Positions 35,213-55,106 of a stretch of DNA of 64,000 nucleotides are shown here, in pieces; the stretch's first letter is position 1, and the number at the start of each line of letters is the position of its first letter. The translations under genes and the position numbers were made by a program. Below the pieces are notes generated by a model, which was not told the origin of the DNA, did no database searches, and saw only the letters and a program-made list of their open reading frames with translations. The stretch is from Maribacter sp. HTCC2170 (GTDB lineage Bacteria > Bacteroidota > Bacteroidia > Flavobacteriales > Flavobacteriaceae), in assembly GCF_000153165.2 (NCBI RefSeq), contig NC_014472.1:2290001-2354000 (forward strand), read 5' to 3'.

Positions 35213-35381
35213 CTGCCCACATTGGTATTATCTTTTGACGAACTCAACATTAATTTGTTTAAAAAGGGTGAGTTTAGATTGTAAAAGCAGGCCTTCTCGA
35301 TAAAGGATCCTTGATCAGTCTGGTAACCCTAAACCTGTTTTCTGGAGTTTGTACAAAACTTCTCCAATGTGGGCTTTTTTT
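35213..35381 (+). ncRNA. ssrS: 6S RNA (flavobacterial type)
   Basis: The zapA-rny interval folds into a long rod. GCCCACATTGG (35215-35225) pairs perfectly with CCAATGTGGGC (35363-35373); further in, ACGAACTC (35238-35245) pairs with GAGTTTGT (35345-35352), with TTG/CAA (35235-35237 / 35354-35356) next to it across a small bulge. GTTTAG (35272-35277) pairs with CTAAAC (35329-35334). A T-run (35374-35381) closes it. Length ~168 nt, a long closing stem, a large central bubble and the place behind zapA are what is known for 6S RNA, which sequesters RNA polymerase. Ends are estimated from the stem and T-run. Confidence 0.8.
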
Positions 35382-35399
35382 ATACTAAATTTTGAAATT

Positions 35400-37039: not shown

Positions 37040-40000
37040 CTAATCTAAAACTACTTCAACCTGTATTTGTTCTATAGTGTTGTTTCTTTCAAATATTTGT
37101 CGACTAAGGTCTTCAGTCAAAGTTAGACCGCTAACAATTTCTGTTGAACTGTTAGTATTCACTAGGATTATTTGGTTCTTGACAGAACGTTTATATACCA
37201 CTGGAACTTGACAATAGGTAAAACAGAGGGATTCTTTTTCTACTACAATTTCTTTAGTTTTTTGAAGTACATTATTGTATTTAAAAGTTTTGCCTTTTCT
37301 TAAAAATTCCTCTTTTCTTAAAAGGACTGGTCTAAATTGAAGTTTGCCTTTTTTTACAAAAACCCCCAACTCTCCAAATCTACTCAAAATATCTTCTTTT
37401 ACCTGACCTGTCATGCCTGGTTGCTGAGCGCCTTTACCTGAAGGTGTATGGGAATACGGGTCGGTTGGAAATGCACCGTACAATTCCGGGGATTTATGAA
37501 CACCTATGCCTTCATTTATTTCATAATAATGGTCCAGTAATTTTCCGATTGTTATAGGGTCTTCGTTCTCAGACATGGCTTTTAGGCATATTTCCTGTAC
37601 GGCTAACACTAACTTTGATACCATATGCCAATAGATTGAACCAAGCCCCTCATATCCAAAAAACGTTCCTGATCTACCCGTAAAGGATTTATGGTCGAAA
37701 ACCATTTCAAACACCTCTAACAATTTTTGCCTTTCATTCGTTATTAAAAGGCCGTATTCTTTTTGATCCAGTTGTGATAAGGCATTTATAAGGCTTCCTG
37801 CGTTATTGAAATTCCCATTGAAATGGAAACCTCCAGATTGATCTTTTTCAATTATCTGTTTGTTTTCATCTTCAAGGAGTTTTTTCAATAATTGCGAGTT
37901 TTTGACATCGTCAAGTGGAATATTGTTTTTCTCTTTGAATCTGGTCAGTTCTTTGTTAGGATATAACAAATAACTGTATTGGTCCGTTCTAAATAAAGAA
38001 CTGTTCTTCAACCCATCCAAAAGTTCCAACGCCTCTTCTGAGTTTAAATATCCTGAACTTAGGATTGCAACTTGACCTTCTAACATTTCATTCAAATGGG
38101 ATACAGAAACTTCCTTTTCGTTATCAATGGTCATTAAATTATAAGAATGATACATTTTGTCTCCCCTCTTATTGGCCTTGATTGTATGGTCAAGGAACTT
38201 TTTAGAGATGTTAAAAAAGTGTATTAACTTATTTTTATGTACTACCTTCTTTTTATCTTCGAAACCTTTTTTATAGATAGATGATCTATATGAACTAGCG
38301 GCATTTCCTAAACCATCCAATATAGTTTTTCGATCTTTATTTGTTATTTCGCTATTAAGAACATGTTGGTAGCGATCGAAGGTTGAAACTACATCATTAA
38401 AGAAGGTCGAGAGTTCTACGGAAATAGTTGTCTCTTCTATAGAGTCGTTTGTGACAAGCTCTTCTAAAAAATTGATAAATCTTCTTAAATAATACAAGGT
38501 TACCATAGAAACCCCATTACCAACCAATGCATTGTTTGCATCATTCCATTCAGGCCTTTGGGTGTTTAACCATATCCCGCCTTCAGGAATAAAGTTTGAT
38601 GTTTTGGCTAGGAGAGTAACTAATAGTTTCTCGATTAAATTTACGTAGTAAATTGACTGGTCCTTACTTGTAATCAATGCGCCATCTGCCCCGATTTCCT
38701 TTTTTCTATGAGATAATAGCTCATCCAAATTTGTGTCAAAATCTATAGTGTCTTTCGGGTTATTAAGTGTGTCAGAATAACTCTTTATTTTATATGGGAC
38801 ATTTGCATACACGAATAATTCTTGGTTAAAATAGCTTATCAATTTGTTTGGATAATGATTCTCGATAAACTCCAAGAATTTCAAAAGGTATATAATTTGA
38901 TGATCTCCCCAATACCCAATATAAGACCATGGGTCGTTTTCTTCAATGACTTCCCAATCAAACCCATCTTTGGTGACGCGATAGGGATTATAACCTTCGA
39001 AAGTGGTTGCATTTAAAAATTTATGGATCATACTTTCAATAAACTCTGGATAGGAATGGGCCAAAGCTTCCCAGTTTTGAAAGATATCACGCCAATTGCC
39101 CTCATAGTCAAGAATCTTTGAGCCGTCGATTTCACTTCTGGTGTTTATTGAAAATTTGTTCCAGGGTCTACTTGGGTCACCATGACGTCGACTGAACTTC
39201 AATGGCATATATTCAAAACACAGTCTTTTAAAGTCGACATCTTCGTTTTGTTTGATTAATTCTTTTAATTCAGGCAGTGTAAATATATTAGGAAGGTTAC
39301 TTACTAATTGTGATTGTCTTTTCGCTACTTGTTTATTGGCCTTGACGATATATTTGGTGAAATCTACTTTCTCTATTTGATAGTTATTATCGAATATTCC
39401 ACCCCTCATTATGTTGAAAAGCGTGTTTGAAAAGTGCCTTGTGTTTCTTTGTTTATCGGCCGACAATTGCTGCCCGTCAGCTGCATCTGTCAATTCCAAT
39501 AGATGGTTTGTTCCACTATCAATATCACGCTGAACAAGTTCTATGGGCTTCTTTTCGGTTTTTATTATCTCTGAAATTTCAGAGATGGCAGAAATTGTTT
39601 GATTTACATTGGCTATGATCAGCCAGTTTTTATTTGAACCAGACCCTAATTGTAATTCTGTCTTTATAAAATAAGCTCCCTTTTCTGCTTTTATGTCAAT
39701 TTCTGATTCAATGGGCTTACCTCTTCTAAAAGCATTTAATTGTAAAGAGGAGATTAAAAATTCCTGAACGTTAATTCCGGCAGACCAAGCAATAGTAGAT
39801 TTCAGAGCTTCACTGGGTTCGGCCTTATCTACAATAATTGCGCTTAGGGCATAAATTCCGACGCCAGAATCTATTTCCAATTCATTTTTCTTATATGCAT
39901 CTACCAAATTGCTTCTTGTGTTTTGCATTTCGGTTGTAACACCATAAGGTAAAATGTTCTGGATACCATCAATAATAGTAGCATTTATCTGTCCGCTGGA

Positions 40001-40504
40001 ATTATTTATTAAAGAAGACTTTTTTACAAATCCGAATTTGTTGCTAGAATTCCATTGATATCTAAATGTGAGTCCTAAATCTTTGTTTAATTCCTCAAAA
40101 ATCACCTTATTGCCATAACTGTTCTTGTAAAGGTTTCGGGTGATTTTATAAATACCAGCATATTTATCCGAGAAGGGTTCCCATAGATAGGACTTGTTTT
40201 CTTTATGAATTTGTAAAATTGTTTTACTACCGGTGATTTCAGCTGATTCAGTAATCTTGTCATCCGTATAATATGGGAAAAGAGCGTGATCACTATCCTT
40301 TCTGCCTGCCGTTAAACCTCCATTACTGGATAAGAACATCCAGTGATTGGAATCACTGACTATGCTCATAAAAAAGGGCCTCATTGCATCGCTGTTAGTA
40401 ATCTTATAATAGTTTTCTCCATCCAGGTTTATTAGTTCCCCAGTTACTTTCAACTCTTTGAAAGAAGAAGTTTTGTCACCTATATATATTGGGCTTTTGC
40501 GCAT
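37040..40504 (-). CDS. Beta-1,3-glucan phosphorylase-like protein (GH149/GH161 type)
   Basis: 1154 residues, no signal peptide, so cytoplasmic. The layout fits GH94-related inverting phosphorylases: an N-terminal beta-sandwich region with FFMSIVSDSNHWMFLSSNGG, a large (alpha/alpha)6 section, and the signature HGDPSRPWNKFSI and PEWNDANNALVG. In this last motif Asp655 stands where the WND aspartate is the general acid in GH94. The length, near 1100-1150, points to GH149, described from Euglena and Bacteroidota and acting on beta-1,3-oligoglucans with phosphate to give glucose-1-phosphate; GH161 is the alternative. It is the last gene of the glucan locus. I judge this from motif memory, without alignment. 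Confidence 0.68.
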   Translation of the reverse strand: MRKSPIYIGDKTSSFKELKVTGELINLDGENYYKITNSDAMRPFFMSIVSDSNHWMFLSSNGGLTAGRKDSDHALFPYYTDDKITESAEITGSKTILQIHKENKSYLWEPFSDKYAGIYKITRNLYKNSYGNKVIFEELNKDLGLTFRYQWNSSNKFGFVKKSSLINNSSGQINATIIDGIQNILPYGVTTEMQNTRSNLVDAYKKNELEIDSGVGIYALSAIIVDKAEPSEALKSTIAWSAGINVQEFLISSLQLNAFRRGKPIESEIDIKAEKGAYFIKTELQLGSGSNKNWLIIANVNQTISAISEISEIIKTEKKPIELVQRDIDSGTNHLLELTDAADGQQLSADKQRNTRHFSNTLFNIMRGGIFDNNYQIEKVDFTKYIVKANKQVAKRQSQLVSNLPNIFTLPELKELIKQNEDVDFKRLCFEYMPLKFSRRHGDPSRPWNKFSINTRSEIDGSKILDYEGNWRDIFQNWEALAHSYPEFIESMIHKFLNATTFEGYNPYRVTKDGFDWEVIEENDPWSYIGYWGDHQIIYLLKFLEFIENHYPNKLISYFNQELFVYANVPYKIKSYSDTLNNPKDTIDFDTNLDELLSHRKKEIGADGALITSKDQSIYYVNLIEKLLVTLLAKTSNFIPEGGIWLNTQRPEWNDANNALVGNGVSMVTLYYLRRFINFLEELVTNDSIEETTISVELSTFFNDVVSTFDRYQHVLNSEITNKDRKTILDGLGNAASSYRSSIYKKGFEDKKKVVHKNKLIHFFNISKKFLDHTIKANKRGDKMYHSYNLMTIDNEKEVSVSHLNEMLEGQVAILSSGYLNSEEALELLDGLKNSSLFRTDQYSYLLYPNKELTRFKEKNNIPLDDVKNSQLLKKLLEDENKQIIEKDQSGGFHFNGNFNNAGSLINALSQLDQKEYGLLITNERQKLLEVFEMVFDHKSFTGRSGTFFGYEGLGSIYWHMVSKLVLAVQEICLKAMSENEDPITIGKLLDHYYEINEGIGVHKSPELYGAFPTDPYSHTPSGKGAQQPGMTGQVKEDILSRFGELGVFVKKGKLQFRPVLLRKEEFLRKGKTFKYNNVLQKTKEIVVEKESLCFTYCQVPVVYKRSVKNQIILVNTNSSTEIVSGLTLTEDLSRQIFERNNTIEQIQVEVVLD

Positions 40505-40586
40505 ACGTTTCTAATAATTTAAAATAAAAACCTCAATAAAAAAGGGTGTATTTTTAAAGAGGTCTTTTGTTGTATTTATGTTTTTG

Positions 40587-41906
40587 TTATTTCACCATAA
40601 AAGGAATATTGGCCGTGGCAGAATGATCGGCACCATCATTGGCATAAATAAATAATCTATATGCCCCACTTTTAGGAGTTTTAAAAGATAGCTCGCCATC
40701 TTTTTGGCTTACAATTTTTATTTTCAATGCTTCTGGGCGTTCTTCATGATCTCCACCATCTTTAAGGTCAGTACTTTCCGGTAAGATTTCCCATGTATAA
40801 TTAATTGCATCATTTTCAAAATCCTTTATTTTCACTAATGCGTTCGCGATTTCGTTAGATTTTAGTTCAATATTGTCGTAAGCAGTTTTATTATTCAGCG
40901 AATAGGATTCTATTTGCGGGGTCCTATTTTTTGGCCATTCATCATTCCATATATAATGCATAACATCAACCGATTCTGTCTCCTTGCCATCTTCCAAGAA
41001 AATCCCATACCAAGTCGGCGTACGTTCTTGTTTGTTGCCCCATAAAAACACATAGGAACCGATACATTGCAGTGAATCGGCTTCTATACCACCTTTAAAG
41101 CGTTTCATATAATTTGCGGCTTTGACTGTGCTATTGTCCTCAATAGGTGCTCCCCATGAGGTGGTGGGAACCTCCCAATGACCAGTAGCACCCCATTCAG
41201 TAACCATGTAGGCTCCTTCCCAACCAAATTCCCGAACCAATTTGGGGAGATTTGGAAGATCACCATACATCTGAACCGCAAGAATATCCAAGTCAGAACA
41301 TCTTTCTTTTATCAGCGTTACCTCTTTTTGAGCTATACCCGCCAAACTAGTTGTCGTCAAATGATTAGGATCTACTTCATGTATCATTTTTGAAATATTG
41401 TTCACAGCATCCCAAACTTTTGGATTGGAATAATGTAAGTTGAGTTCATTGCCAATTCCCCAAATGAGTAAAGCCGGGTGGTCTTTTAATTCTAGAACCT
41501 GTTCTTTTATTTCACTTAATTGTTTAGCTACTGCTTTTTCATCATTGTAATCAAAACCATGTCTTTCGCGTGCTACTTCAATGCCCATTGTCACCATTAA
41601 GCCATTTTCATGGGCTTCATCCAATACTTCTTTGGCAGATCTTTCACCATTTTCGGTACGCCAAGTTCTAAAAGAGTTTGCATTGTGTTGGGAAAGTTTT
41701 GAAATATCGCCAAATTCAAGACCGGCACCATCTATATAAAACTCTTTGTTGTTAACTAATAGTTGAAATTTGCCGTTTGAATTTTTGAGTTCAACTTTCG
41801 CGGGCCCTGGTTTTGATGCTGAGTTTTGATCTACTGGATTATTTGAGGCCTTTTCTTTACAGGAAAAGAGAACCAAAAATGACATTATTACTAACAGTCT
41901 ATTCAT
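40587..41906 (-). CDS. Clan GH-A glycoside hydrolase lipoprotein (GH2-TIM-barrel-like)
   Basis: 439 residues with a lipoprotein signal ending at Cys16 (LVLFSCKEK). The (beta/alpha)8 barrel carries the acid/base Glu154 in IWGIGNELNLH and the nucleophile Glu237 in MVTEWGATG, 83 residues apart as expected for clan GH-A. Residues ~330-439 form a beta-sandwich ending IPFMVK. Annotation of such proteins is often 'glycoside hydrolase family 2 TIM barrel'; GH17, GH158 or GH5-type beta-1,3-glucanases are related possibilities. Its lipid anchor and the neighbours GH16, MFS and phosphorylase suggest it trims beta-glucan oligosaccharides in the periplasm or at the surface. Family left open. Confidence 0.8.
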   Translation of the reverse strand: MNRLLVIMSFLVLFSCKEKASNNPVDQNSASKPGPAKVELKNSNGKFQLLVNNKEFYIDGAGLEFGDISKLSQHNANSFRTWRTENGERSAKEVLDEAHENGLMVTMGIEVARERHGFDYNDEKAVAKQLSEIKEQVLELKDHPALLIWGIGNELNLHYSNPKVWDAVNNISKMIHEVDPNHLTTTSLAGIAQKEVTLIKERCSDLDILAVQMYGDLPNLPKLVREFGWEGAYMVTEWGATGHWEVPTTSWGAPIEDNSTVKAANYMKRFKGGIEADSLQCIGSYVFLWGNKQERTPTWYGIFLEDGKETESVDVMHYIWNDEWPKNRTPQIESYSLNNKTAYDNIELKSNEIANALVKIKDFENDAINYTWEILPESTDLKDGGDHEERPEALKIKIVSQKDGELSFKTPKSGAYRLFIYANDGADHSATANIPFMVK

Positions 41907-41913
41907 TTGAAAT

Positions 41914-43455
41914 TTATTTTCTGATTAATAGCTCTTCGACTTCTTCTAGTGTTTTCCCTTTTGTTTCAATCACGAATTTGTAGACAAAGATGATGGCGCA
42001 GAACGAAAGTAAGGCATAAATTGCAAAGGTTGTTGTTGGTCCTAAATTTGATAGCTCCCAAGGAAAAACCTGTGTTACAGAAAAACTGACCAATGAATTA
42101 AAAAAACCAACCACCGAAATAGCTATACCTTTAATTTTACTTGGAAACACTTCTGAAATTAACGTCCACATTACTGGTCCCAAAGAAATTGCAAAAGAGG
42201 CAACATAGAGTAAAATGGCTATAAGAACTAGAGTTGCGTTGATTTTTATGGTATTTGTAATCTCATTTCTTTTAAATTCCAAGAACTGATCTGCGTTTAG
42301 TTTGGTTTCAACTTCTGCAAAAAGAGCAGCTTGCCCATCAAAAGATTTTCCACTAAGATCAGTTAAAGCATTTTTGATTTCGTTATTACTTATCTTATTT
42401 AATGTGTTTTCGTTGAGGTCATAGGTGGCATTGTTAAAGGCAAATGCAGCCATAAGTAAAGCTATGGTCATAAAGGTCGTACCTATAAGTAAAAGCGGTT
42501 TTCTCCCTAATTTGTCTATTAACCAAATGGCAACTAAGGTGAAAACTAAATTTGTGAGACCAACAACTATTGCCTGAAGAAAAGAAGAATCAGTACTTCC
42601 TCCTGCTTGTTCAAAAATAGTTGGGGCATAATAAAAAACTGCATTGATGCCCGTAATCTGTTGAAAAAATGCTATGCCTAAGGCAATGATCATTATAGTG
42701 GCATATTTACTTTTAAAAATATCTGAGAATTTACCTTTTTCTTCTTTTTTAGCAATTCCTCTTTGAATTTCAGCTATTGTTAACTCAGCATATTCTTCAC
42801 CCCCAATTTTTTGAAGAATTTTCCGTGCCAATTTGATTTTATTCAATTTTAAGATTAACCATCTAGGGCTTTTAGGAACGGTCCAAAGGGCCAAAAAGTA
42901 AATTAACGCTGGAATGGCTTCGACACCTAACATCCACCTCCAACTTTCGCCATCCATGTTTACCAAGAAATAATTTGAAAAGTATGCAACTGAAATACCA
43001 ATAACGATATTTAATTGATTGAAAGAGACTAAACTACCTCTCAATTTGGGAGGCGCAATTTCGGCAATATAGATTGGAGCAATTAATATGGCTCCACCTA
43101 TGCCTATACCTCCAATAATTCTGGCAATAATAAACTCGGTATAACCTGTTGCGAATGCCGACCAAGAAGCTGAAATTGTAAACAGGGCAGCTACAATAAT
43201 TAGCACACTTTTTCTCCCAAATTTATCTGCCAAAGGGCCAGCGACCAAATTACCGGCCATGGCCCCAAAAACAACACAACCCACAGAAAAGCCTAACATC
43301 CATTCAGTCATTTCAAAGTAAATCGTGATTCCTTTAACAGCACCAGAGATTACGGCACTATCAAAACCTAATAAAAACCCGCCCAATGCGACTATTAAGC
43401 TTATGAGTATGGTATAAGATTTATTCATTTTAATTACTTCTTCGGGTTGTTCCAT
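41914..43455 (-). CDS. Sugar porter-family MFS transporter
   Basis: 513 residues (another ATG is at 43428, after nine hydrophilic residues). Twelve membrane helices with sugar-porter motifs: GFLLGFDSAVISGA, DKFGRKSVLI, PKSPRWLI, QQITGINAVFYYAPTIFEQAG, DKLGRKPLLLIG and the closing ETKGKTLEEVEELL. An extra ~60 residues lie between helices 9 and 10 (YDLNENTLNKISNNEIK onward). It imports sugars across the inner membrane, usually by proton symport. The gene starts 137 bp after GH16 and is followed 7 bp later by the GH-A lipoprotein gene. In this locus glucose or short beta-glucan oligosaccharides are the likely ligand. Confidence 0.93.
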   Translation of the reverse strand: MEQPEEVIKMNKSYTILISLIVALGGFLLGFDSAVISGAVKGITIYFEMTEWMLGFSVGCVVFGAMAGNLVAGPLADKFGRKSVLIIVAALFTISASWSAFATGYTEFIIARIIGGIGIGGAILIAPIYIAEIAPPKLRGSLVSFNQLNIVIGISVAYFSNYFLVNMDGESWRWMLGVEAIPALIYFLALWTVPKSPRWLILKLNKIKLARKILQKIGGEEYAELTIAEIQRGIAKKEEKGKFSDIFKSKYATIMIIALGIAFFQQITGINAVFYYAPTIFEQAGGSTDSSFLQAIVVGLTNLVFTLVAIWLIDKLGRKPLLLIGTTFMTIALLMAAFAFNNATYDLNENTLNKISNNEIKNALTDLSGKSFDGQAALFAEVETKLNADQFLEFKRNEITNTIKINATLVLIAILLYVASFAISLGPVMWTLISEVFPSKIKGIAISVVGFFNSLVSFSVTQVFPWELSNLGPTTTFAIYALLSFCAIIFVYKFVIETKGKTLEEVEELLIRK

Positions 43456-43592
43456 GATATGGTTTTAGTTGAATTATTAAAGTCTGGCTGTTATTTATTA
43501 GAGTTTTTGGTATGAATTAAATATAGGTATTAAAACAAAAAGATCAATAGAATTCAAAAGGCTTTTTTACTTCAAAATGTGCTACCCATTAT

Positions 43593-44702
43593 TTATTGGT
43601 ATACTCTCACATAATCAATTTCAAGAATGTCTTCGGTGAAATTTTCCGGTACATCACCTCCTAAAGTTCCTCCCATAGCCAGATTCATCAATAAATAATG
43701 TAGATGGTTATAAGGCTTATTTGAAGAATTAGGCAAATCATAGATCAACTCGTTATCTACAAATACTTTTATGTTATTGCTGTTCCATTCCATAGAATAA
43801 ATGTGAAATGCACTTGAAGTATCAGAAATTGTATTTGTGCCACCAGAATTCATATATTCACCGGAGTTCATGTCTCCCCAATGAAAATGGGCAATAACAC
43901 TATTTTTATTCCATCCATTTTGCTCCATAATATCAATTTCTCCACAAGCTGGCCAACCCACGTTGCCATATTGGTCGCCAAAATAATTCCCTGTTTCATT
44001 GATATTCGCTCCAAGAGTCCAAAACGCGGGCCATGTACCTTCTTCAGCAGGAAGTTTAGCGCGAAACTCAACACGTCCATAGGTAAAGACAAATTTTGAA
44101 TTTAACCTTGCTGAAGTATATGATTTGGTAGAATTGTTTGTAGTGTATTGCTCTTTTAAAGCTACAATTTTTAGGGTGCCATCACTCACAAATGAATTGG
44201 TGGCTCTGTCCGTGTAATGCTGCAGCTCATCATTATACCAGCTCCCATTATTTGGGGGGATGACTTGATAGTGCCACTTTTCAGGGTCAGGACTTCCTTC
44301 GTACTCAAATTCATCTGAGAAAATTAAGGTTGTAAAGGCTTCATCGGATTTGGAAACTTCCACAATTATGGTTTCATTGATAAACTCCCCTGTTTCTGAA
44401 TAAGCCCATGCCGTAACAGAATATGAATGCGTACCATCTTGGGTAAAGACATGCTCTATTGAGCCAGAAGGGCTTTCTTGCAAATCCCCATTTTCAAATC
44501 TGAATGCATATCTGACAGCATTTTCGGCGGATGCAGAAACCTGTACCACTCCAGAACCATCCCCGTTTGGGTTTGTAGCGTCCGAGCCAACAATGGTTAC
44601 GTTCAACACTAGTTTGGATGGTATGTTGTTGGGCTGAGAATCTCCTTCACTACAAGAAATTACAAGCGTTAGGATGATCAAGGCCCTGTTTAAATAGTTC
44701 AT
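43593..44702 (-). CDS. GH16 endo-beta-1,3-glucanase (laminarinase-like) lipoprotein
   Basis: 369 residues with a lipoprotein signal ending at Cys17 (LVISCSEG). A PKD/Ig-like domain fills ~28-120, followed by the GH16 domain (~125-369): LIFSDEFEYEGSPDPEKWHY, then YTSARLNSK and the catalytic motif GEIDIMEQNG with nucleophile Glu255, Asp257 and acid/base Glu260. The ExDxxE spacing with a Met bulge is typical of laminarinase-type GH16. The lipid anchor places it on the surface or in the periplasm, so it cuts long glucans for SusC import. It lies 179 bp after the SGBP gene, with a hairpin between. Confidence 0.94.
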   Translation of the reverse strand: MNYLNRALIILTLVISCSEGDSQPNNIPSKLVLNVTIVGSDATNPNGDGSGVVQVSASAENAVRYAFRFENGDLQESPSGSIEHVFTQDGTHSYSVTAWAYSETGEFINETIIVEVSKSDEAFTTLIFSDEFEYEGSPDPEKWHYQVIPPNNGSWYNDELQHYTDRATNSFVSDGTLKIVALKEQYTTNNSTKSYTSARLNSKFVFTYGRVEFRAKLPAEEGTWPAFWTLGANINETGNYFGDQYGNVGWPACGEIDIMEQNGWNKNSVIAHFHWGDMNSGEYMNSGGTNTISDTSSAFHIYSMEWNSNNIKVFVDNELIYDLPNSSNKPYNHLHYLLMNLAMGGTLGGDVPENFTEDILEIDYVRVYQ

Positions 44703-44778
44703 TTTAAATATTTGGTAAATTATATTTTACTTCATGGTTTTTATGGCACATTTTTTAACACATGTACTGCAATTTATT

Positions 44779-44809
44779 GATATGCCCCTATTTTTCTTAG
44801 GGGCATATC
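44779..44809 (-). other. Intercistronic hairpin in the glucan operon
   Basis: GATATGCCCCT (44779-44789) pairs perfectly with AGGGGCATATC (44799-44809) around a 9-base loop. On the transcribed minus strand no T-run follows, so it is more likely an mRNA 3'-end stabiliser or partial terminator between the susCD-SGBP part and the GH16 part. Confidence 0.65.
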
Positions 44810-44881
44810 TGTTAACTAGGCTAACTCAAATTAAATCCAATTACACTGCCGTATGCAGTTTCCTTTTATACCGTTATAGAT

Positions 44882-46720
44882 CTATTGATAGAAATAGATA
44901 TTATCAAAATAAACTGTACCGTTGCCATCAAACTTCATTTGGATCACATCCATTAAATCCACTACGCCTGAAAACTCGGTAAGTGGGATATCCACACTGA
45001 CCCACTCTCCTGTTGTTATGGCAAATGAATGTGATGTTTCTACGGGACCTGAACTGATAAGGAAACCATTAAAGGCCGAGGAATCCGCGGTCCAATAGTC
45101 TATATGCAGCATGCTCATTCCCGAAACATCCAAAGGTACGGCGAATTGAGTTCCTTGGTAGTTCAAGTTTTCATATTTCAGGGTGTTGTCACCGGCAACA
45201 TCTACCTGTGTCACCACTGTGGCTTGGCCCCAATTCGGGTTAAAATCAGTCCCGGACACATCTGTATAAGCGTCACTGAACACTGAAATTACATCAGCCT
45301 CTGCAGCGGTTGGTGTTGGTGCAGCACTATTTGGCTCCGTAGCGGGCGCATTATAGAAATAGATATTATCCAAATAAATAGTTCCATTGCCATCAAACTT
45401 CATTTGAACGACATCCATTAGATCTACTACCCCTGAAAATTCGGTAAGTGGAATATCCACACTGACCCATTGTCCTGTTGTTATGGCAAATGAATATGCT
45501 ATTTCTACTGGTCCTGAGCTGATAAGGAAGCCGTTAAGAGCCGAGGAATCCGCGGTCCAATAGTCCATATGCAGCATGCTCATTCCCGAAATATCCAAAG
45601 GTGCGGCGAATTGTGTACCCTGGTAGTTCAAGTTTTCATATTTTAGGGTGTTATCGCCAGCAATATCTACCTGTGTCACCACTGTGGCTTGGCCCCAATT
45701 CGGGTTGAAGTCTGTTCCGGTCACATCAGTATAATCGTCGCTGAACACCGAAATGACATTGGCTTCTGCAACAGTTGGTGTGGGTGCGGCACTGGTTGGT
45801 CCTGTTGGTTGTCCTTGGTGGAAATATATATTATCCAAATAGATGGTCCCATCACCATCAAACTTCATTTGAATGACATCCATTAGATCTACTACGCCTG
45901 AAAACTCTGTGAGTGGAATGTCCACACTGACCCATTCTCCAGTTGTTAAAGCAAAAGCATGTGCTGTTTCTACTGGACCTGAGCTGATAAGGAAACCATT
46001 AAATCCGGCTGAATCCGCTGTCCAATAATCAACGTGCATAAAAGACATTCCTGAAACGTCTATTGAATTTTCCAATGCAATTCCTTGGTAATTTAGATTC
46101 CCATATTTCAAAGTATTGTTTCCATCAATATCCTCTTGTGTTGTTACCGTGGCTTGTCCCCAATCAGGATTAAAATTTGTACCTGTAACATTGGTATAAG
46201 TATCACTAAATATAGAGATTACATCTGATTCCGCTAATGTTGGCATTGGTGCAGCAGTAGTTGGCCCTGTTGGTTGTCCTTGATGGAAATAGATATTATC
46301 CAAATAAATGGTTCCATTGCCATCAAACTTCATTTGAACAACATCCATTAAATCCACTACACTTGAAAATTCTGATAAAGGGATATCAACACCTACCCAT
46401 TCGCCAGTGGTTACCGTAAAAGCATGAGGTGCTTCTAGAGGACCAGGGCTTATAAGGAAACCATTAAATCCTGTTGAATCAGCGGTCCAATAATCAACGT
46501 GCATGAAAGACATTCCCGAAACGTCTATCGAATTTTCCAATGCGATTCCTTGGTAATTTAGATTCCCATATTTCAAAGTATTGTTTCCATCAATATCCTC
46601 TTGTGTTGTTACTGTGGCTTGTCCCCAATCAGGATTAAAATCTGTGCCACTAACATTAGTATAAGTATCACTAAATATAGAAATTACATCTGATTCTGAT
46701 AATGTTGGTTCAGGCGCTGA
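44882..46720 (-). repeat. Four tandem 465-bp repeats inside the SGBP gene
   Basis: The starts of the repeat unit (Ala-Ala-Pro or Ser-Ala-Pro codons) lie at 46720, 46255, 45790 and 45325: an exact 465-bp (155-codon) period three times in a row. The last copy ends with the stop after 444 bp. Copies 1 and 2 resemble each other most, as do 3 and 4, so the array likely grew in two steps. Confidence 0.95.
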
Positions 46721-47392
46721 AGTTGTAGGTTCTGTAGCCTCAACTGCCCCTCCCTCGGCCATGGTTATATCATCAAAATAATGTGTGGTATCAGCATCCT
46801 TATCACTATTGAAATCAAAAAAGAGTACCAACCTATCATATTTGTCAGAATCACTTGATGAAAAAGCAAAAGACAATTCTTCCCATTCGTTTGCAACCGT
46901 TGTAGTGCCCTGAACTTCTTTGTTTATTGAACCATCAGCACTATCCTCTAATTTTAGAAGTACGGTCTGATCGGCAGCTGGAGAATATACTTTTACTTTA
47001 ATAGTCTGTTTCTCCGAGAAATCTACCTTACCGGTCAAGTCGAAAAAGAAACCAGCCCAAGGTTCTACACCTGTAGTCTGTATATACTCAACTACCTTCT
47101 CTGAAGTGTTTATTCCAGAACCATTTGGGTTTTCAACAAACTCTATTGTTAAGGAGCCGTCCTTTTCCCCAAAAAAATCAATTTCAGGCCCTCCACATTC
47201 AAAATCTATTCCGGCAGAAATGTCATTTACTACAGGATCCTCTGGACAACCTTCAATAATTGGTAAAGGTTCTGGTGCAACATAGGCCGAAGGTGGCGGA
47301 ATGTCATCTTCTATTTCGCAGGAAATGATGACGCATATCATTCCCATCCCAAAAATTAAAGCTAAAAGGGGTAATCTTGTGCTAAGCTTCAT
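44882..47392 (-). CDS. Surface glycan-binding lipoprotein with four tandem CBM-like repeats
   Basis: 836 residues from the ATG at 47392 (a longer start at 47416 adds eight residues before the signal). A lipoprotein signal ends at Cys25 (VIISCEIEDD). Residues ~45-215 form a beta-sandwich (VKVYSPAADQTVLLKLED, HYFDDITM) like CBM-type domains. Four consecutive repeats of 155 residues follow, each with VISxFSD..YTNV, WGQATV, LKY.NLNYQG, SGM..xH.DYWTADS, GEWV.VDIPL.EFS and MKFDGNGT.Y.DNIYF. That beta-sandwich form is common to family CBM4/11-like modules, with a Trp/Tyr cluster for glucan binding. The place after susD identifies it as the locus's surface glycan-binding protein. Confidence 0.85.
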   Translation of the reverse strand: MKLSTRLPLLALIFGMGMICVIISCEIEDDIPPPSAYVAPEPLPIIEGCPEDPVVNDISAGIDFECGGPEIDFFGEKDGSLTIEFVENPNGSGINTSEKVVEYIQTTGVEPWAGFFFDLTGKVDFSEKQTIKVKVYSPAADQTVLLKLEDSADGSINKEVQGTTTVANEWEELSFAFSSSDSDKYDRLVLFFDFNSDKDADTTHYFDDITMAEGGAVEATEPTTSAPEPTLSESDVISIFSDTYTNVSGTDFNPDWGQATVTTQEDIDGNNTLKYGNLNYQGIALENSIDVSGMSFMHVDYWTADSTGFNGFLISPGPLEAPHAFTVTTGEWVGVDIPLSEFSSVVDLMDVVQMKFDGNGTIYLDNIYFHQGQPTGPTTAAPMPTLAESDVISIFSDTYTNVTGTNFNPDWGQATVTTQEDIDGNNTLKYGNLNYQGIALENSIDVSGMSFMHVDYWTADSAGFNGFLISSGPVETAHAFALTTGEWVSVDIPLTEFSGVVDLMDVIQMKFDGDGTIYLDNIYFHQGQPTGPTSAAPTPTVAEANVISVFSDDYTDVTGTDFNPNWGQATVVTQVDIAGDNTLKYENLNYQGTQFAAPLDISGMSMLHMDYWTADSSALNGFLISSGPVEIAYSFAITTGQWVSVDIPLTEFSGVVDLMDVVQMKFDGNGTIYLDNIYFYNAPATEPNSAAPTPTAAEADVISVFSDAYTDVSGTDFNPNWGQATVVTQVDVAGDNTLKYENLNYQGTQFAVPLDVSGMSMLHIDYWTADSSAFNGFLISSGPVETSHSFAITTGEWVSVDIPLTEFSGVVDLMDVIQMKFDGNGTVYFDNIYFYQ

Positions 47393-47449
47393 TTTAGTGT
47401 TTCTATTTGTATTCATTTCACAATTTTTTAATTAATATTATATCGGCCA

Positions 47450-49066
47450 TTAGTTATATCCCTGGTTTTGAGGATAGCTAGGCCCCAATAAATCCATTTG
47501 TTGCTGAGGTATTGGCCAATTTTGCATATACTCCCTTAGGATTTCCTTAGGATTTCCTTCAGGGTACGACTCATTCATATTATCGTTGTTCATATGATCT
47601 AGTAAAAACTCATATAAATTACCGGTTCTTTTGAGGGTATACCAACGTTGCCCTTCAAACCCAAGTTCGCGGGCCCTTTCGTCCAAAACTGCCTGCAGAT
47701 CAACTGTGGTTATAGAAGCTGCATTGGCTCTATTTCGAACAGCATTAATGTATTCCAGGGCTTTGGTATTATTTGCCAACATCATATGTGCTTCGGCACC
47801 TATTAAATAGGTTTCGGCCAATCTATAGATCATAATATTTTTGAAGTGGTTTCTATCAGTGGGTTCTACATTTTCATCAAAGAATTTTAAGACTCCAGGG
47901 TTTTGTCTCCTATAGTAGAGCATAAACTCATTTTGATCGGTTTCACTATTTTCATAAAGATCCAATGGGTCACCCAACTGCTTGCCCGCTGGAAGCGAAG
48001 GCTCATCGTTATAGGCATATTTGAAAATATAATAGGTATTGTCCTTTCTGTCGTCATTGGGGTCCTCATTCAACAAATTAATCGCATAATCATTCAATGA
48101 TAGGAAACCTACGCCAGCCCCTCCGTTTTCAATCGATTGTATCATACCAGGAGCATCTGCATAGGATGATACCAGGTTCCAGTTCATGATATGTGGACTG
48201 CCTCCACCAATGGTCTCTTTTTCAAAATTGAGGGCAAATAAAGTTTCTGAATGATTTAATTCTCCGGCAAACACTTCAGCAGTAGTAGTGGTTAGGCTAT
48301 GGTAGCCACTGTTAGCGACAGCATCTGCCTGTGCAGCTGCTTCTGTCCAATCATTTTCCCACATGGCCACCTTGGCCCTTAGATGTCTTGCCGCACCTTG
48401 GCCCCATCTACCAAACTGTTCTGTGTTGTATTCGAGGTTGACAATGGCAAAATCCAAATCTGCCTTTAAGAGTGAAAAAATTTCCCCTTCAGAAGATTTG
48501 TCTTGTGGCACATCAAAAGCATTTTCAGGAGTCGTAGGCTCCGTGGTGATATAAATATTATTAAAAAGCCTATACAGGATAAAATAAGAATTGGCCCGCA
48601 TGCATTTAGCTTCGGCCAAGATTTGATTTTTTATCTTTTCATCAATACCCTGTATTTTCTCCGCTCCTTGAATAATGGCATTGGATCTATCAACTATTTT
48701 GTAATAGTTCACCCAATAGGCATTAAGCCCAGAGGTAGTTCCAAAATCTCCCAAACTGGCGCCCCAAAGTAATCTACTATATAGGGAAGCCTCACCGGTT
48801 ATTCCTACTCCAAGATCACTCTTGGCCTGTGGAATAAGTGGGTATGTGCCATTTAAGCTTAGGTCTTGGTAAAGATTTCTATTCAAGGAATATAATCCTA
48901 CGACAGCAGATTCAAGACCTTCAGGAGTTGTATACAGAAAATCAACAGAAGTGTTTGAAAGAAGCTTGTCCTCTAAAAAATCCTCTTGGCATGAAGTGAA
49001 AAGCAAAAGGCAACCTAGTATTGTATAAAAGCTTTTTGATAACATATTATTATTTATATTTTTCAT
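47450..49066 (-). CDS. SusD-family surface glycan-binding lipoprotein
   Basis: 538 residues; a second ATG at 49045 would also leave an intact lipoprotein signal (LLLFTSCQEDFLEDKLL, the typical SusD opening). It shows the SusD helical fold: KCMRANSYFILYRLFNNI, then IYRLAETYLIGAEAHMML, INAVRNRANA, LDERARELGFEGQRWYTLKRTGNL and the end NWPIPQQQMDLLGPSYPQNQGYN. It caps the SusC transporter encoded 11 bp upstream. Confidence 0.96.
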   Translation of the reverse strand: MKNINNNMLSKSFYTILGCLLLFTSCQEDFLEDKLLSNTSVDFLYTTPEGLESAVVGLYSLNRNLYQDLSLNGTYPLIPQAKSDLGVGITGEASLYSRLLWGASLGDFGTTSGLNAYWVNYYKIVDRSNAIIQGAEKIQGIDEKIKNQILAEAKCMRANSYFILYRLFNNIYITTEPTTPENAFDVPQDKSSEGEIFSLLKADLDFAIVNLEYNTEQFGRWGQGAARHLRAKVAMWENDWTEAAAQADAVANSGYHSLTTTTAEVFAGELNHSETLFALNFEKETIGGGSPHIMNWNLVSSYADAPGMIQSIENGGAGVGFLSLNDYAINLLNEDPNDDRKDNTYYIFKYAYNDEPSLPAGKQLGDPLDLYENSETDQNEFMLYYRRQNPGVLKFFDENVEPTDRNHFKNIMIYRLAETYLIGAEAHMMLANNTKALEYINAVRNRANAASITTVDLQAVLDERARELGFEGQRWYTLKRTGNLYEFLLDHMNNDNMNESYPEGNPKEILREYMQNWPIPQQQMDLLGPSYPQNQGYN

Positions 49067-49077
49067 AATATTTTTTT

Positions 49078-52059
49078 TTAAAACCCTACTTTGACCCCAA
49101 GTGTTATGTTTTTGGTTTCAGGAAATGCAGTTCCACCACTATTGTTTAGCGGGTTTTGTTCTGGACTATATGATCTAAAATCTGTTAAAGTGAACAAATT
49201 AGTTCCCGTTACATATACTTTTGCATTTTGAAATCCAATTTTTGAAAGCGTCTCTTTAGGAATATTATACCCCAATGACAATGTTCTCAATCGTACATAT
49301 GATGCGTCCCTTACCGCGAATGGGAAAAGGTGCAAATGGGTGTCAGGTTTAGGTCTAGGATAGTCCGTTGAAGGAAATTCTGGAGTATAATACTTTGTCC
49401 GAATTCCATTGATTGACCCTTTCCACAACTCCCCATTGGCGAGAACGGGATTTAATTTTGTTGCTCCTTCGACGATGTAGATATCGGCAAATAAGTCAAA
49501 GTTCTTGAACGTAATGGAATTGGTGATCGAACCGTACCAATTAGGATCTGTACTCGTAAATACATTATCTCTATTATCAATCTGACCATTCCCATCTTGA
49601 TCTATGACCCTAACATCCCCAGGGTTTGCCAAAGGGTTACCTGAACCTGCAATGTCATCACCTACTTGATAGATTCCATCGTATTTAGGCAACCAAATGT
49701 TGTTGATAGGTTGACCTACAGATAATCGTCTTCCTGAAGCAATGTCCGTGATATCAATTTCATTGCCATTTTCATCAAGTTCTCCTGTAAGCGCGAGCAC
49801 CTCAGTCCTGTTCCTTGAGAATACCATTCCTAACGACCATCGTAAGTTCTCATTTCGTATAATATGAGATGTCAATGATGCTTCAATTCCGCGGTTCTCA
49901 ATTTCACCTGCGTTAAAGCGAATTACGTTGAACCCGGTAGTACCCGCAATTGACCTATCCAATAATAAATCAGTGGTGTTCGCTTTATAGTATTCAAAAG
50001 TACCCTCAAAGCGGTTTTTGAACAACTTAAAATCAAGACCAGTGTTCAGGGTAGTAGTGGTTTCCCACCTCAAGTCTGGATTGGGCAAACGTGATGAGGC
50101 AGTTGCTCCTGCCACGGTTTGATCGCCAAAAACATAAGGTATGTCATCGGCTACACCCAAGGACTCCAACGAATTGATGCCTTGATTTCCAGTGGTCCCG
50201 TAGCTGACTCGTAATTTCATTTCGTTTATGGCATCCACATTTTCTAAAAATGCCTCGTTCTGCATTTTCCAAGCCAGAGAAACTGCAGGGAAGAATCCCC
50301 ATTTATTGTTCTCGGCAAATACTGAGGCACCATCAGCTCGTGCCGTTGCCTCTAATAAATAGCGATCAAGATATCCATATCGTACCCTGCCCAAAAAAGA
50401 GAGTAATTTACGTTGTGAAACGCCCCTAACGCTATTGAGAAGTACAGTTGCATTTCCATTAAAACCAAGGGCATCATTGGTAAATCCCGATTTGTCAATT
50501 TGGGTGTATTCATTTCGTTGTTCATCAAAAGCTTGAACCGCAGTAAAGTCCAGACTATGGTTTTCATTGATCTGTGGTGTATAATTGAGGATGTTTTCCA
50601 CCAAGACCTGTTTAAATAACTGGTTAGAAATAACCGCAAGCCCATCTACCCCTTCATCTCCTGCTGAATGTAAGGATGTTCTGTAAATTCCCCTATTAGT
50701 ATTTCTGTTCCTCAAAAATGTCTTTAATGTGTAGCTCAGATTGGGTGTAAAGTTGTACACCAAGCTGAGGTTAACATCTGTAAGGTTTGTTTTGGTCTCG
50801 TCGGTTGATTCCCTTTGATCCCATAGCGGGTTTACCGCGGTATTTGATGGACCTAAATAAAATTTGAGTAATTCGCCCTCTTCGTCCAATGGTTTGGCCA
50901 GGGGTGTTATGGTAGTAAAGTTTAGGCCGCCTGTTTCTTGATTCTGTGTAGAATTTTGATAGTTGAAAATTCCTCTAAATAAAAGTTTGTCCGTTAATTC
51001 CTGCTCCAAGTTCAGTTTTAAAGTACCTCTGTCAAAACTAGAATTTGGGATTATACCTTCTTGGGAGAAATAATTGACACTTGAAAAAACCCTGGTTTTT
51101 TCAGTACCCGATGAAAAGCTCAAAGCATGGCTTTGTATTACTGCGTCCTGTAATACCAAATCTTCCCAATCTACAAAATCATTATTTCCTATGGCATCAA
51201 TCTCAAAAGGAGAAAATATGTTTTCATCCCTCAAGTATTCCCCAGTAAATCTATTTCGGTTGGCTTCCCTTTTTAAATCAATGTATTGCTGACCAGTATA
51301 TTGATTAAAATTTTTGGACAATGACTGTACTGTAGTATAGCCGTGGTAGTCAATAGATACTTTGCCAGTCTTCCCCGTTTTAGTAGTAACCAGTATAACA
51401 CCATTTGATGCTCTTGAACCATAAATTGCGGTTGCAGATGCATCTTTTAGGATTTCAATATTGGCTATATCGTCTGGTGATACATCATTTAAACTGTCAA
51501 ATGGTAAGCCATCAACTATTACTAACGGAGAGTTTCCATTTGGAGCTACGGAAACATTACCCCGAATGACAATATTAGATGATCCACCTGGTCTTGCATC
51601 GCCTAGATTAACTTGGACACCTGCCGCTCGACCCCGTAACATCTCCGATACGTTTGTGGTAGGTACGGAAGTGGCGTCATCAACTTCAACGCTAGTTACA
51701 GAACCAACTACGTTGCTCTTCTTTTGTGTACCATAACCCACTACAACAACTTCATCCAAAGCACTTACATCTTCCTGAAGATTTATTGTTATAGGATTGG
51801 AGTTACTTACCGTAACTTCTTGGGTTACAAATCCTAAATAGGAGAAAGATATTATATCTCCAATGGTCATGTCTTGGATGGTAAAATTTCCATCAAAATC
51901 TGTAGTGGTTCCTTTTACTGTATTTTTTACAATTATACTTACACCCGGTAAAGGTTCATTGTAACTTGCATCCAAAACAGTTCCACTTATCGTTAGGTCT
52001 TGACCCCATATACTTGGTATGCAACAAATAATAGTAAGAAATAAAAAAATGCGCTTCAT
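49078..52059 (-). CDS. SusC/RagA-family TonB-linked outer-membrane transporter
   Basis: 993 residues. It has a signal peptide (FLFLTIICCIPSIWGQ), a carboxypeptidase-D-like domain (~22-100), the plug start DEVVVVGYGTQKKSNVVGSV (~100) through YGSRASNGVILVTTKTG, and the barrel ending KNITLGVKVGF. It is the transporter of the glucan locus and probably imports laminarin-derived oligosaccharides of several sugars. The upstream 236 bp must hold its promoter; the regulator gene precedes it in the same direction. Confidence 0.97.
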   Translation of the reverse strand: MKRIFLFLTIICCIPSIWGQDLTISGTVLDASYNEPLPGVSIIVKNTVKGTTTDFDGNFTIQDMTIGDIISFSYLGFVTQEVTVSNSNPITINLQEDVSALDEVVVVGYGTQKKSNVVGSVTSVEVDDATSVPTTNVSEMLRGRAAGVQVNLGDARPGGSSNIVIRGNVSVAPNGNSPLVIVDGLPFDSLNDVSPDDIANIEILKDASATAIYGSRASNGVILVTTKTGKTGKVSIDYHGYTTVQSLSKNFNQYTGQQYIDLKREANRNRFTGEYLRDENIFSPFEIDAIGNNDFVDWEDLVLQDAVIQSHALSFSSGTEKTRVFSSVNYFSQEGIIPNSSFDRGTLKLNLEQELTDKLLFRGIFNYQNSTQNQETGGLNFTTITPLAKPLDEEGELLKFYLGPSNTAVNPLWDQRESTDETKTNLTDVNLSLVYNFTPNLSYTLKTFLRNRNTNRGIYRTSLHSAGDEGVDGLAVISNQLFKQVLVENILNYTPQINENHSLDFTAVQAFDEQRNEYTQIDKSGFTNDALGFNGNATVLLNSVRGVSQRKLLSFLGRVRYGYLDRYLLEATARADGASVFAENNKWGFFPAVSLAWKMQNEAFLENVDAINEMKLRVSYGTTGNQGINSLESLGVADDIPYVFGDQTVAGATASSRLPNPDLRWETTTTLNTGLDFKLFKNRFEGTFEYYKANTTDLLLDRSIAGTTGFNVIRFNAGEIENRGIEASLTSHIIRNENLRWSLGMVFSRNRTEVLALTGELDENGNEIDITDIASGRRLSVGQPINNIWLPKYDGIYQVGDDIAGSGNPLANPGDVRVIDQDGNGQIDNRDNVFTSTDPNWYGSITNSITFKNFDLFADIYIVEGATKLNPVLANGELWKGSINGIRTKYYTPEFPSTDYPRPKPDTHLHLFPFAVRDASYVRLRTLSLGYNIPKETLSKIGFQNAKVYVTGTNLFTLTDFRSYSPEQNPLNNSGGTAFPETKNITLGVKVGF

Positions 52060-52295
52060 GTGTTGTGTATTTTGAAGTCACAATGTATTTCATAATAAAA
52101 AGGAATCCTTAAATTCTACCACTACAAAAAACATACATGGCAATAAAAAAGTAATAAAATTGCATAATTGATGGATTATCCCTTGGGAAACGGGGATTTC
52201 TATAATTCTTAAATGCTAAAAAAATTTAACAATCAATTAAGAGAATCACTTTTGTATAGGTAATGTTGTGGTTAAATGGACTTTTGTAGTATGCC

Positions 52296-55106
52296 CTAAA
52301 GGTTTAAAATGTAGTCGGTAAGGCTGTTTTCGTGCGGAAGTGCCATTTTTTTGCGTAGACGATAGCGTTTTACCTCTACACTACGTACCGAAATATTGAG
52401 TAACGGCGCTATTTCCTTTGAAGTTAAATTCAATCTAAGATAAGCGCATAATCTTAAGTCGTTGGGTGTTAAATTTTGGTGATGCGATTTAATATTCTTT
52501 AAAAAATCCTTATCGGCATTGTTGAATGCTTCTTCAAAAAATTGCCAGTCATCAGTATTATTGATATTTCTGTTTATCGTCTTTATTACCGATTTTATCT
52601 TTGGAGTATTTTCTACTTGTTTTAATTGATCTTTGATGCTATTCAGGAATTCATTCTTCTTAATAAGACTCATTGTAGAGATGGCCAACTCTCGATTTTT
52701 GTTTGCTATGTCCATCTTTAATTTTTCGTTTTTGATTTGTATGATTTCCTGCTGGGCCTTTAGTTTCTTTTGTTTAAGCTTTTTCAAGTTTTCTTTTATC
52801 AACAATGCATGTTGCTTTTTATAATATGATTTATATAGTTTATGGATTATAAATACTAATACACAAATACTTAGAATATAACATAGTATTGCCCAATTGG
52901 AATAGTACCAGGGCCTTTTAATTTTGAATGCGAAGGAATCTATATTTTTTGACAATTGATTTCCAACTAATGCTCTAACTTTAAATGTATACTCACCGAA
53001 TCGCAAATTTTTAAATGATACGTCGGGGCTATCGAACCATTCGCTCCATTGGTCGTTTACCCCATATAATTGGTATTGATAATTAACCTCTGCGTATTTA
53101 TCAAATTCCGAAACACTAAAAGAGAACTTGAAATTATTTTCATGGGATGGGAATTCCGAATTAGTCCCTAAAGAAACTTTATCTTCAGGAGCATGTAGAG
53201 ATTCGTTATAAACCGAATTAATCTTAACCGAAAGTTCCTTGGGTTTTATTTTATCCACATTCAAAATGGTGTAACCATCTGAAGCACCGATCAAAAAACG
53301 ATTGTCCTCTATATTAGTCAAGAATTCAAATCCTGAAATTCCTAAGCTTCTTCTAAAAGTGCTTGGGATCGGAATTTTAAAAGATTCAGGAGTATTCTTG
53401 AAATTACTTGGGGTTACAGCTATTATATTTTTATTGGAAAAACCCCATAGCTTATTGGTTTTCTGGTCCGGAATCAATATTCCTAAAATATCCTCATCTG
53501 AATTGTAAAACAAGCTGGTCAATAATGAATCAGCTTCGAAATTTTGCTTATCTACATTGAATTTTAATATTCTTCTATCAGAATTTGAAGTATATAATAG
53601 ATTGTCATGATAACGAACCAAACTCGACCCATATCCCTTGGGTGACTCATTCTCAATGTTTAATACCTTATTGAAACTTGAATCTAACTTTAGTTTAAAG
53701 ATACCTTTATACTCGTTGTTAACGATTATTTGATTGTCATCTGTGAATTCAAAAAATCTACTTGAAAAATCAAACCCCCTCAATCTATTTCTAAATTGCC
53801 ACTGACCCTTTATTTTTTCAAGCACGCTCAAACCCTCATAATTTCCTTGCAACAACAGATTCTCGTACCCTCTTATCCTTTTAATATTCCAGGTGCCAGG
53901 ATAATCTGATATCAATTTTGCCTTATCTTTATCAATAGTGTAAGTGCCATTATTATGAGCACAAAATAAGGTGTTTTCCATAACCAAAAGACACCATACT
54001 TGGCCTTCTGTTTTTTCGATTAATTGAAACTCATTTTGGGTATTTGCTTTTTTATAAAATAACCCTTGATTTGTTCCTATATACAGATTTTCATTGAAGA
54101 CTTGCGCAGCATAAACATTACCCACTTCCCCTTTTAGATCTTTATATTCAGTAAAAGGTGAATCTAAATTTATAACACTTATCCCATTGTCCAAACCTAA
54201 CCACAGATTCTCATCTTGGTCTTGAAACATTGATAATACTGTATTATTGTTGAGGCCTTTTTCTTTATTAATCTTATTGATTAGATTGCCGTTTGGATCA
54301 ATATGGTAAATACCATTCGAGATGGTCCCTAACATAAAACTACCATCATGCAATTGAACACTACTGTAAACATTTATTAAGGACAAATCTTCATCTGCTT
54401 CAATATTCCACTTGCTAAGACCAGTATCATTCAAAAAGTAAAACTCCCCATTTTCACTAAGAAACAGAATTTTGTTTTCAATTTGAAAAGCCCCTACCAA
54501 TACATAATCTTTAAAAACAGGGTCGCTTGACACTAAAATAGGTTCACCATTTTCAATTTTATAAATTCCTTCACTTAGTTTTTGAAATAATACACTTTTA
54601 CCAACATTGAAAATTTTTGCTCTTCTAGTTTCAGAATTAATAATTTGAATAGATTCATCAATTGAATTGTAAATGTATATACGGTCCAAAGATTGAAATA
54701 ATACCCAATCATCAACTTTTAGTATGTTCCAAAATTGTTCATCGTCGATTAAGGAGTCTTTAAGTTTAGGAACCAATGAATTATATTGTAAATCACCGAA
54801 TTTATCTTTTTCCCAGTATCCAAACTCCATATAACATCCAGTATAAACAAGTTCATCAATAACCTTCACTGATCTTATGACAGAACCGTTTGGAGTCTTA
54901 AATAACTGCCACTTGGCCCCGTCATATCGTAATAGGCCGGCATTATTGGCAATAAAAATATGCTTGTTGTAATCTTGGGAAACCATCCAGTTCTGGTTAC
55001 CTGCATTATAGTCCTTGGCTTTATAAGATGTAATAGGAGGTAATTCTTGAGCATGTAGATTCAAACAAACAAGTGAGAAATAAAATAAAGGCCAAATTGA
55101 TTTCAT
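52296..55106 (-). CDS. One-piece transmembrane sensor/regulator: propeller + Y_Y_Y + LuxR-type HTH
   Basis: 936 residues. It has a signal peptide (LFYFSLVCLNLHAQ), then ~680 residues of beta-propeller repeats (DENLWLGLDNGISVINLDS and similar), a Y_Y_Y-like domain (~640-725, YQLYGVNDQWSEWFDSPDVSF), one membrane helix (~737-757, WAILCYILSICVLVFIIHKL) and a coiled coil. The C-terminus is a LuxR-type helix-turn-helix (~880-925, LTPNDLRLCAYLRLNLTSKEIAPLLNISVRSVEVKRYRLRKKM). There is no histidine kinase, so it senses sugar outside the membrane and binds DNA directly, as SusR does. It lies upstream of susC in the same direction and is the likely activator of the glucan locus. Confidence 0.9.
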   Translation of the reverse strand: MKSIWPLFYFSLVCLNLHAQELPPITSYKAKDYNAGNQNWMVSQDYNKHIFIANNAGLLRYDGAKWQLFKTPNGSVIRSVKVIDELVYTGCYMEFGYWEKDKFGDLQYNSLVPKLKDSLIDDEQFWNILKVDDWVLFQSLDRIYIYNSIDESIQIINSETRRAKIFNVGKSVLFQKLSEGIYKIENGEPILVSSDPVFKDYVLVGAFQIENKILFLSENGEFYFLNDTGLSKWNIEADEDLSLINVYSSVQLHDGSFMLGTISNGIYHIDPNGNLINKINKEKGLNNNTVLSMFQDQDENLWLGLDNGISVINLDSPFTEYKDLKGEVGNVYAAQVFNENLYIGTNQGLFYKKANTQNEFQLIEKTEGQVWCLLVMENTLFCAHNNGTYTIDKDKAKLISDYPGTWNIKRIRGYENLLLQGNYEGLSVLEKIKGQWQFRNRLRGFDFSSRFFEFTDDNQIIVNNEYKGIFKLKLDSSFNKVLNIENESPKGYGSSLVRYHDNLLYTSNSDRRILKFNVDKQNFEADSLLTSLFYNSDEDILGILIPDQKTNKLWGFSNKNIIAVTPSNFKNTPESFKIPIPSTFRRSLGISGFEFLTNIEDNRFLIGASDGYTILNVDKIKPKELSVKINSVYNESLHAPEDKVSLGTNSEFPSHENNFKFSFSVSEFDKYAEVNYQYQLYGVNDQWSEWFDSPDVSFKNLRFGEYTFKVRALVGNQLSKNIDSFAFKIKRPWYYSNWAILCYILSICVLVFIIHKLYKSYYKKQHALLIKENLKKLKQKKLKAQQEIIQIKNEKLKMDIANKNRELAISTMSLIKKNEFLNSIKDQLKQVENTPKIKSVIKTINRNINNTDDWQFFEEAFNNADKDFLKNIKSHHQNLTPNDLRLCAYLRLNLTSKEIAPLLNISVRSVEVKRYRLRKKMALPHENSLTDYILNL

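Follow-up and report, generated by a model that had tools for sequence, protein, structure and literature searches.

The stretch of Maribacter sp. HTCC2170 DNA analysed here, referred to as the window, is 64,000 nucleotides long and carries on its minus strand, between positions 37040 and 55106, an intact locus of eight open reading frames. Read from the 5' end these encode a membrane-spanning regulator, a SusC-like transporter, a SusD-like lipoprotein, a glycan-binding lipoprotein, a GH16 enzyme, a sugar porter, a GH158 enzyme and a GH149 phosphorylase, and the gene assignments are made with high confidence. The intergenic gaps, counted from the GH149 end, measure 82, 7, 137, 179, 33, 11 and 236 bp (range 7-236 bp), and the coordinates, order and tight spacing bear out the preliminary description of the eight genes as one module. 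A susC/susD pair and at least one CAZyme gene lie in one co-directional cluster, which qualifies it as a polysaccharide utilisation locus (PUL). GH3, GH17 and GH30 are not found among the eight genes, so that the earlier remark on a missing GH3 holds for the locus itself. A promoter and terminator scan returned sites no more numerous than in shuffled sequence. Its neighbour, in tail-to-tail orientation, is an RNase Y-like gene (window 35349-36968); at the corresponding place in Maribacter polysiphoniae (L075 13453-17697) nadB-like and nadA-like genes lie between the locus and the RNase Y-like gene.

Probable sensing, binding and cleavage of the glucan

The regulator (52296..55106) combines a beta-propeller (Reg_prop)/Y_Y_Y sensor with one transmembrane segment, located by a TM scan at residues 739-757, and a weak C-terminal helix-turn-helix of the LuxR/GerE type; the Y_Y_Y domain matches its Pfam model at 4e-8, and the Reg_prop and GerE matches are weak. 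The sensor is not a two-component histidine kinase: the protein is a single piece in which the Y_Y_Y sensor part is followed by the membrane segment and the weak LuxR-type domain. Next to it lie the genes for the SusC-like TonB-dependent transporter (49078..52059; TIGR04056, 831.7 bits) and the SusD-like surface lipoprotein (47450..49066; PF07980, 6e-31).

The surface glycan-binding lipoprotein (44882..47416; Pfam CBM_4_9 and SGBP_B_XBD) has 844 residues, with a CBM4_9-like N-terminal part followed by four tandem SGBP-B-like repeats of about 155 residues each, which start at residues 261, 416, 571 and 726. At the DNA level the repeats have a 465-bp period, 3.9 copies and 82% matches. This suggests a tandem duplication and multivalent glucan binding, and a role as a multivalent laminarin binder is plausible. 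Its only solved relative is PDB 8qx6, of which we found no mention in the literature searched.

Two endo-acting enzymes are encoded. The GH16 lipoprotein (43593..44702) carries a PKD-like N-terminal part and matches PDB 4bq1 and 4bow at an E-value of 1e-133, with 184 of 249 residues identical to 4bq1 (74%) and a nearly equal match to 4bow; both structures are of Zobellia LamA, a GH16 endo-1,3-beta-glucanase. Its assignment as an endo-beta-1,3-glucanase (laminarinase) draws on this closest characterised relative together with the catalytic motif EIDIME at residue 255, which has the form ExDxxE. The second enzyme, a lipoprotein of 439 residues (40587..41906) that the preliminary description had left unnamed, is a GH158 endo-beta-1,3-glucanase: PDB 9oro matches residues 25-438 (4.5e-84) and PDB 6pal residues 45-438 (3.1e-71), so that the homology covers both the catalytic and the Ig-like domain. 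The catalytic candidates N153-E154 (acid/base) and E237 (nucleophile) are the counterparts of N136, E137 and E220 of BuGH158, and the Bacteroides enzyme is highly specific for laminarin (PMC7157763). Membership of GH2 was rejected for this protein, given a weak match to the Pfam GH2 TIM-barrel against full-length matches to the solved GH158 enzymes. A search of viral contigs with the GH158 sequence gave no matches.

The GH149 phosphorylase

The last gene (37040..40504) encodes a protein of 1154 residues, which the preliminary description had called GH94-clan-like and signal-less; both statements stand. Its best profile match is the GH149 model NF058639 of NCBIfam, with 1812 bits against a cut-off of 1150 and coverage of model positions 3-1133 of 1134, and it aligns over its full length with the solved GH149 enzyme Pro_7066 (PDB 6hq6; 1624 bits). 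GH149 shares clan GH-Q with GH94 (PMC6484121), and the motifs of the clan are in place: R472-D473, WND at 653-655 with D655, E952 and H960. These align with the active-site residues R470, D471, W651-N652-D653, E951 and H959 of Pro_7066, which has been biochemically characterised as well as solved (PMC6771811). No Pfam family covers the protein. Identity with GH94 or GH161 was rejected, since GH161 structures score about 62 bits, far below the 1624 of GH149. The protein thereby passes the check set in the preliminary description, under which a best profile hit outside GH94/149/161 would have spoken against the reading. A simple hydropathy and lipobox scan detected neither a signal peptide nor a hydrophobic segment, and the gene is present in a single copy in the genome. 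By homology the protein is a GH149 beta-1,3-glucan phosphorylase of predicted cytoplasmic location and activity, and phosphorolysis is its likely reaction in vivo.

Taken together, gene order, families and catalytic residues make it highly probable that this is a laminarin-type beta-1,3-glucan utilisation locus in which GH149 would phosphorolyse imported oligosaccharides; from the same features we infer the substrate, which is likely laminarin, as well as the localisation of the proteins, the transport route and the direction of the GH149 reaction. In the proposed pathway the regulator would sense a glucan cue, and SusD and the multivalent lipoprotein would bind laminarin at the cell surface. 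Endo-cuts by GH16, which probably acts at the surface, and by GH158, at the surface or in the periplasm, would then yield some glucose besides short beta-1,3-oligosaccharides; the pieces would enter the periplasm through SusC. Free glucose would be taken up with a proton, most likely by the sugar porter encoded beside GH158, and the laminari-oligosaccharides would reach the cytoplasm through a carrier that may be encoded outside the locus, a GPH permease at 627-629 kb of the genome being one candidate. There, GH149 and phosphate would shorten them to release glucose-1-phosphate, which phosphoglucomutase would pass on to glycolysis, saving one ATP per bond. The genome holds two phosphohexomutase-family genes, so the use of glucose-1-phosphate is possible in principle.

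Beyond the locus, Pfam searches of the genome returned no match for GH17 (the same model detects GH17 in related loci) and none for GH30; with no GH30, branched laminarin may be used incompletely. A genome-wide absence of GH3 was rejected, as three GH3 genes lie outside the locus, two of them NagZ-type-like and one (652 residues) beta-glucosidase-like, and at the level of the genome glucose may therefore also be released by hydrolysis.

Transport route and alternative readings

The porter (41914..43455) belongs to the sugar-porter (SP) family of MFS transporters (TIGR00879, 373 bits), and its best relatives in the PDB are the xylose/H+ symporter XylE and then the glucose transporter GlcP. The preliminary description had it importing intact short beta-1,3-glucans, a claim that the residues of its pocket (D32, R112, Q147, I154, Q265, Q266, N271, F274, W430 and N453) do not favour. 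All of D27, R133, Q168, Q288, Q289, N294 and W392 of XylE are retained; Q175 of XylE is replaced by I154, L297 by F274, Q415 by N453, as in GlcP, and W416 by S454. In a 2026 study, XylE carrying Q175I and L297F together transported D-glucose almost as well as the wild type transported xylose (PMC13095657). The match of I154 and F274 to this glucose-converting double mutant favours glucose import and weakens the case for import of intact oligosaccharides, and the same pair is kept in nearly all of the GH149-linked porters compared here, the exceptions being the divergent L006 and L008. Judged by its pocket, the protein is thus probably a D-glucose/proton symporter, a better reading than that of an oligosaccharide importer. 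A porter restricted to glucose leaves the locus itself without an obvious oligosaccharide route to GH149, and it is here that the GPH-type permease, encoded beside GH16 and GH94, enters as a candidate.

In an alternative reading, that of the preliminary description, intact laminaribiose and longer oligosaccharides would enter through the MFS porter, and the eight genes would make up a closed phosphorolytic pathway by themselves. The SP porter does adjoin GH149 in many loci, several of which have no GPH permease nearby (L024, L032, L075, L112 and L113), and the serine at the position of XylE Trp416 might widen the pocket. The fungal cellodextrin transporters belong to the SP family too, which speaks for the same reading. 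Yet the core hexose-contacting residues of XylE and GlcP are retained, with I and F occurring naturally at the two glucose-converting positions; the closest relatives of known structure transport monosaccharides; and most GH149 clusters have a GPH permease in place of the SP porter. Oligosaccharide import by the porter of this locus is consequently doubtful on its sequence, and the closed pathway as a whole rather unlikely.

The identity of the glucan raises a different question. Family assignments do not by themselves prove laminarin over mixed-linkage glucan, because GH16_3 enzymes can degrade either glucan. If the substrate were a mixed-linkage beta-1,3/1,4-glucan, GH149 would act on the 1,3 bonds and a GH94 cellobiose phosphorylase on the 1,4 bonds, and the genome does contain a second phosphorolytic cluster at G000:C1 ~624.7-629.5 kb (L103:16684-19119, L104:1-1345, L085) with a GH16 lipoprotein (best PDB match 5wut, ULam111), the GPH permease and a GH94 cellobiose phosphorylase (1350 bits to 3qde), adjoining prmA-like and tpiA-like genes. 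At the same prmA-tpiA site Eudoraea chungangensis (L024 7054-17222) has the porter, GH158 and GH149, then a single GT17-like gene and then a GH94 that is 78% identical to that of the window genome, an arrangement which also fits the mixed-linkage reading. This linkage of GH149 to GH94 is, however, seen in one relative only, the GH16 of the locus most closely resembles a solved endo-1,3-beta-glucanase, and the laminarin specificity of the Bacteroides GH158 (PMC7157763) points the same way; a mixed-linkage substrate is accordingly judged quite improbable. Most improbable is that GH149 works in the synthetic direction, joining imported glucose and glucose-1-phosphate into beta-1,3-gluco-oligosaccharides. 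Its reaction is reversible and glucose is used as an acceptor (PMC6484121), and a porter that appears glucose-specific would fit, but the gene lies within a SusCD/GH16 degradation locus, and in the sea the expression of homologous loci accompanies the use of laminarin (PMC6246565, PMC10108472). Laminarin breakdown with phosphorolysis of the imported pieces is the reading we retain. Elsewhere in the genome, at 724-742 kb (L105), a GH16 gene (L105:8521-9342) stands among lipoprotein genes and a sulfatase-like gene; the region is possibly another algal polysaccharide locus.

Relatives and comparison with known laminarin loci

GH149 occurs in 108 of 301 sampled Flavobacteriaceae genomes and in 8 of the 12 genomes of the genus of the window, which includes M. 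polysiphoniae. Eighteen genomes of the sample carry a close GH158 (62% identity or more), which in 11 of them, spread over several genera, is the immediate upstream neighbour of GH149 and shares its strand; these 11 belong to the 108 genomes with GH149. For comparison of gene content we used 80 GH149 loci, 56 of them of at least 19 kb, where L075 and L112 represent the same locus. GH17 lies near GH149 in 49 of these 56, mostly accompanied by GH30 and a GPH permease, the latter in some cases as a fusion with GH17. The order porter-GH158-GH149 recurs in L008, L024, L032, L036, L075/L112 and L113, and also in L076, where a small ORF interrupts it; a GH158-like match in L110 was left out, being a 156-residue fragment of 28% identity.

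The locus looks like a mosaic when its parts are compared one by one. The congener L111 shares the SusCD-GH16 half at about 90% (SusC 93%, SusD 92%, GH16 89% identical) and has GH17 and GH30 in place of GH158, and the GH158 of the window is 78% identical to those of the congeners L112 and L113, for which SusC identity drops to about 33%; the GH149 of the window is only 67-70% identical to those of all three. We speculate, although we regard it as unlikely, that porter, GH158 and GH149 travel together as a beta-glucan cassette exchanged between SusCD loci and the fixed prmA-tpiA site, where pairing with GH94 would let some flavobacteria degrade mixed-linkage beta-1,3/1,4-glucan by way of two phosphorylases.

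Phosphorylase-bearing laminarin loci are already known. GH149 was defined together with Bacteroidetes PULs in 2018 (Kuhaudomlarp, PMC5827456) and has since been described in a laminarin PUL of Formosa (PMC6246565), in the highly expressed 'variant 1' PULs of blooms, which in Gammaproteobacteria sometimes include GH158 (PMC10108472), as well as in laminarin PULs of Muricauda (PMC13188888). These reports, and the frequency of GH149 among the sampled genomes, run against the earlier view of a phosphorolytic ending as a departure from most laminarin loci. Of the preliminary description, the beta-1,3-glucan locus and its cytoplasmic phosphorylase of clan GH-Q are supported, whereas its unusualness and the role given to the porter are not. 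Less usual is the minimal content of GH16, SP porter, GH158 and GH149, and the present analysis adds this GH158-GH149 variant without GH17, GH30 or GH3, as well as a sequence-based case that the linked porter carries glucose. Laminarin is among the largest marine carbon flows, and phosphorolysis changes the energy yield of its use.

The locus resembles the GH149-bearing laminarin PULs of Bacteroidetes (PMC5827456, PMC10108472 'variant 1', PMC6246565; compare variant B of PMC6298971) in its SusCD pair, GH16, MFS transporter and cytoplasmic GH149. Those PULs contain one or more of GH17 (often fused to an MFS transporter), GH30_1 and GH3, whereas the locus described here has none of these and carries GH158 and an SP-type porter instead. 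Nor does it fit any of the flavobacterial variants A-D, which are defined by GH3 with two GH16 (A), by GH16, GH30 and GH17 (B) or by GH5, GH16 and GH30 (C/D) (PMC6298971), as it is without GH3, GH17 and GH30. With the 1,3-glucan locus of Bacteroides uniformis (PMC7157763) it shares SusCD, a second surface-binding protein, GH16_3 and GH158, but the B. uniformis locus ends with a GH3 beta-glucosidase rather than GH149 and is controlled by an HTCS in place of the LuxR-type membrane regulator. The Muricauda PULs (PMC13188888) agree in GH16, GH149, MFS transporter and a first gene annotated as LuxR, and contain a gene there called 'GH2'; they invariably have a pair of GH17 genes on either side of GH30 and an MFS gene, in contrast to the window locus. 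A likeness within the genus is found in M. polysiphoniae (L075/L112), where porter (89% identical), GH158 (78%) and GH149 (70%) follow in the same order, with an extra GH30 before the porter and different SusCD and GH16 (27-44% identical). For five other Maribacter strains, work published in 2024 had reported only dispersed laminarin-use genes (PMC11345257), and the clustered laminarin-type locus presented here, together with those of other sampled members of the genus, qualifies this picture.
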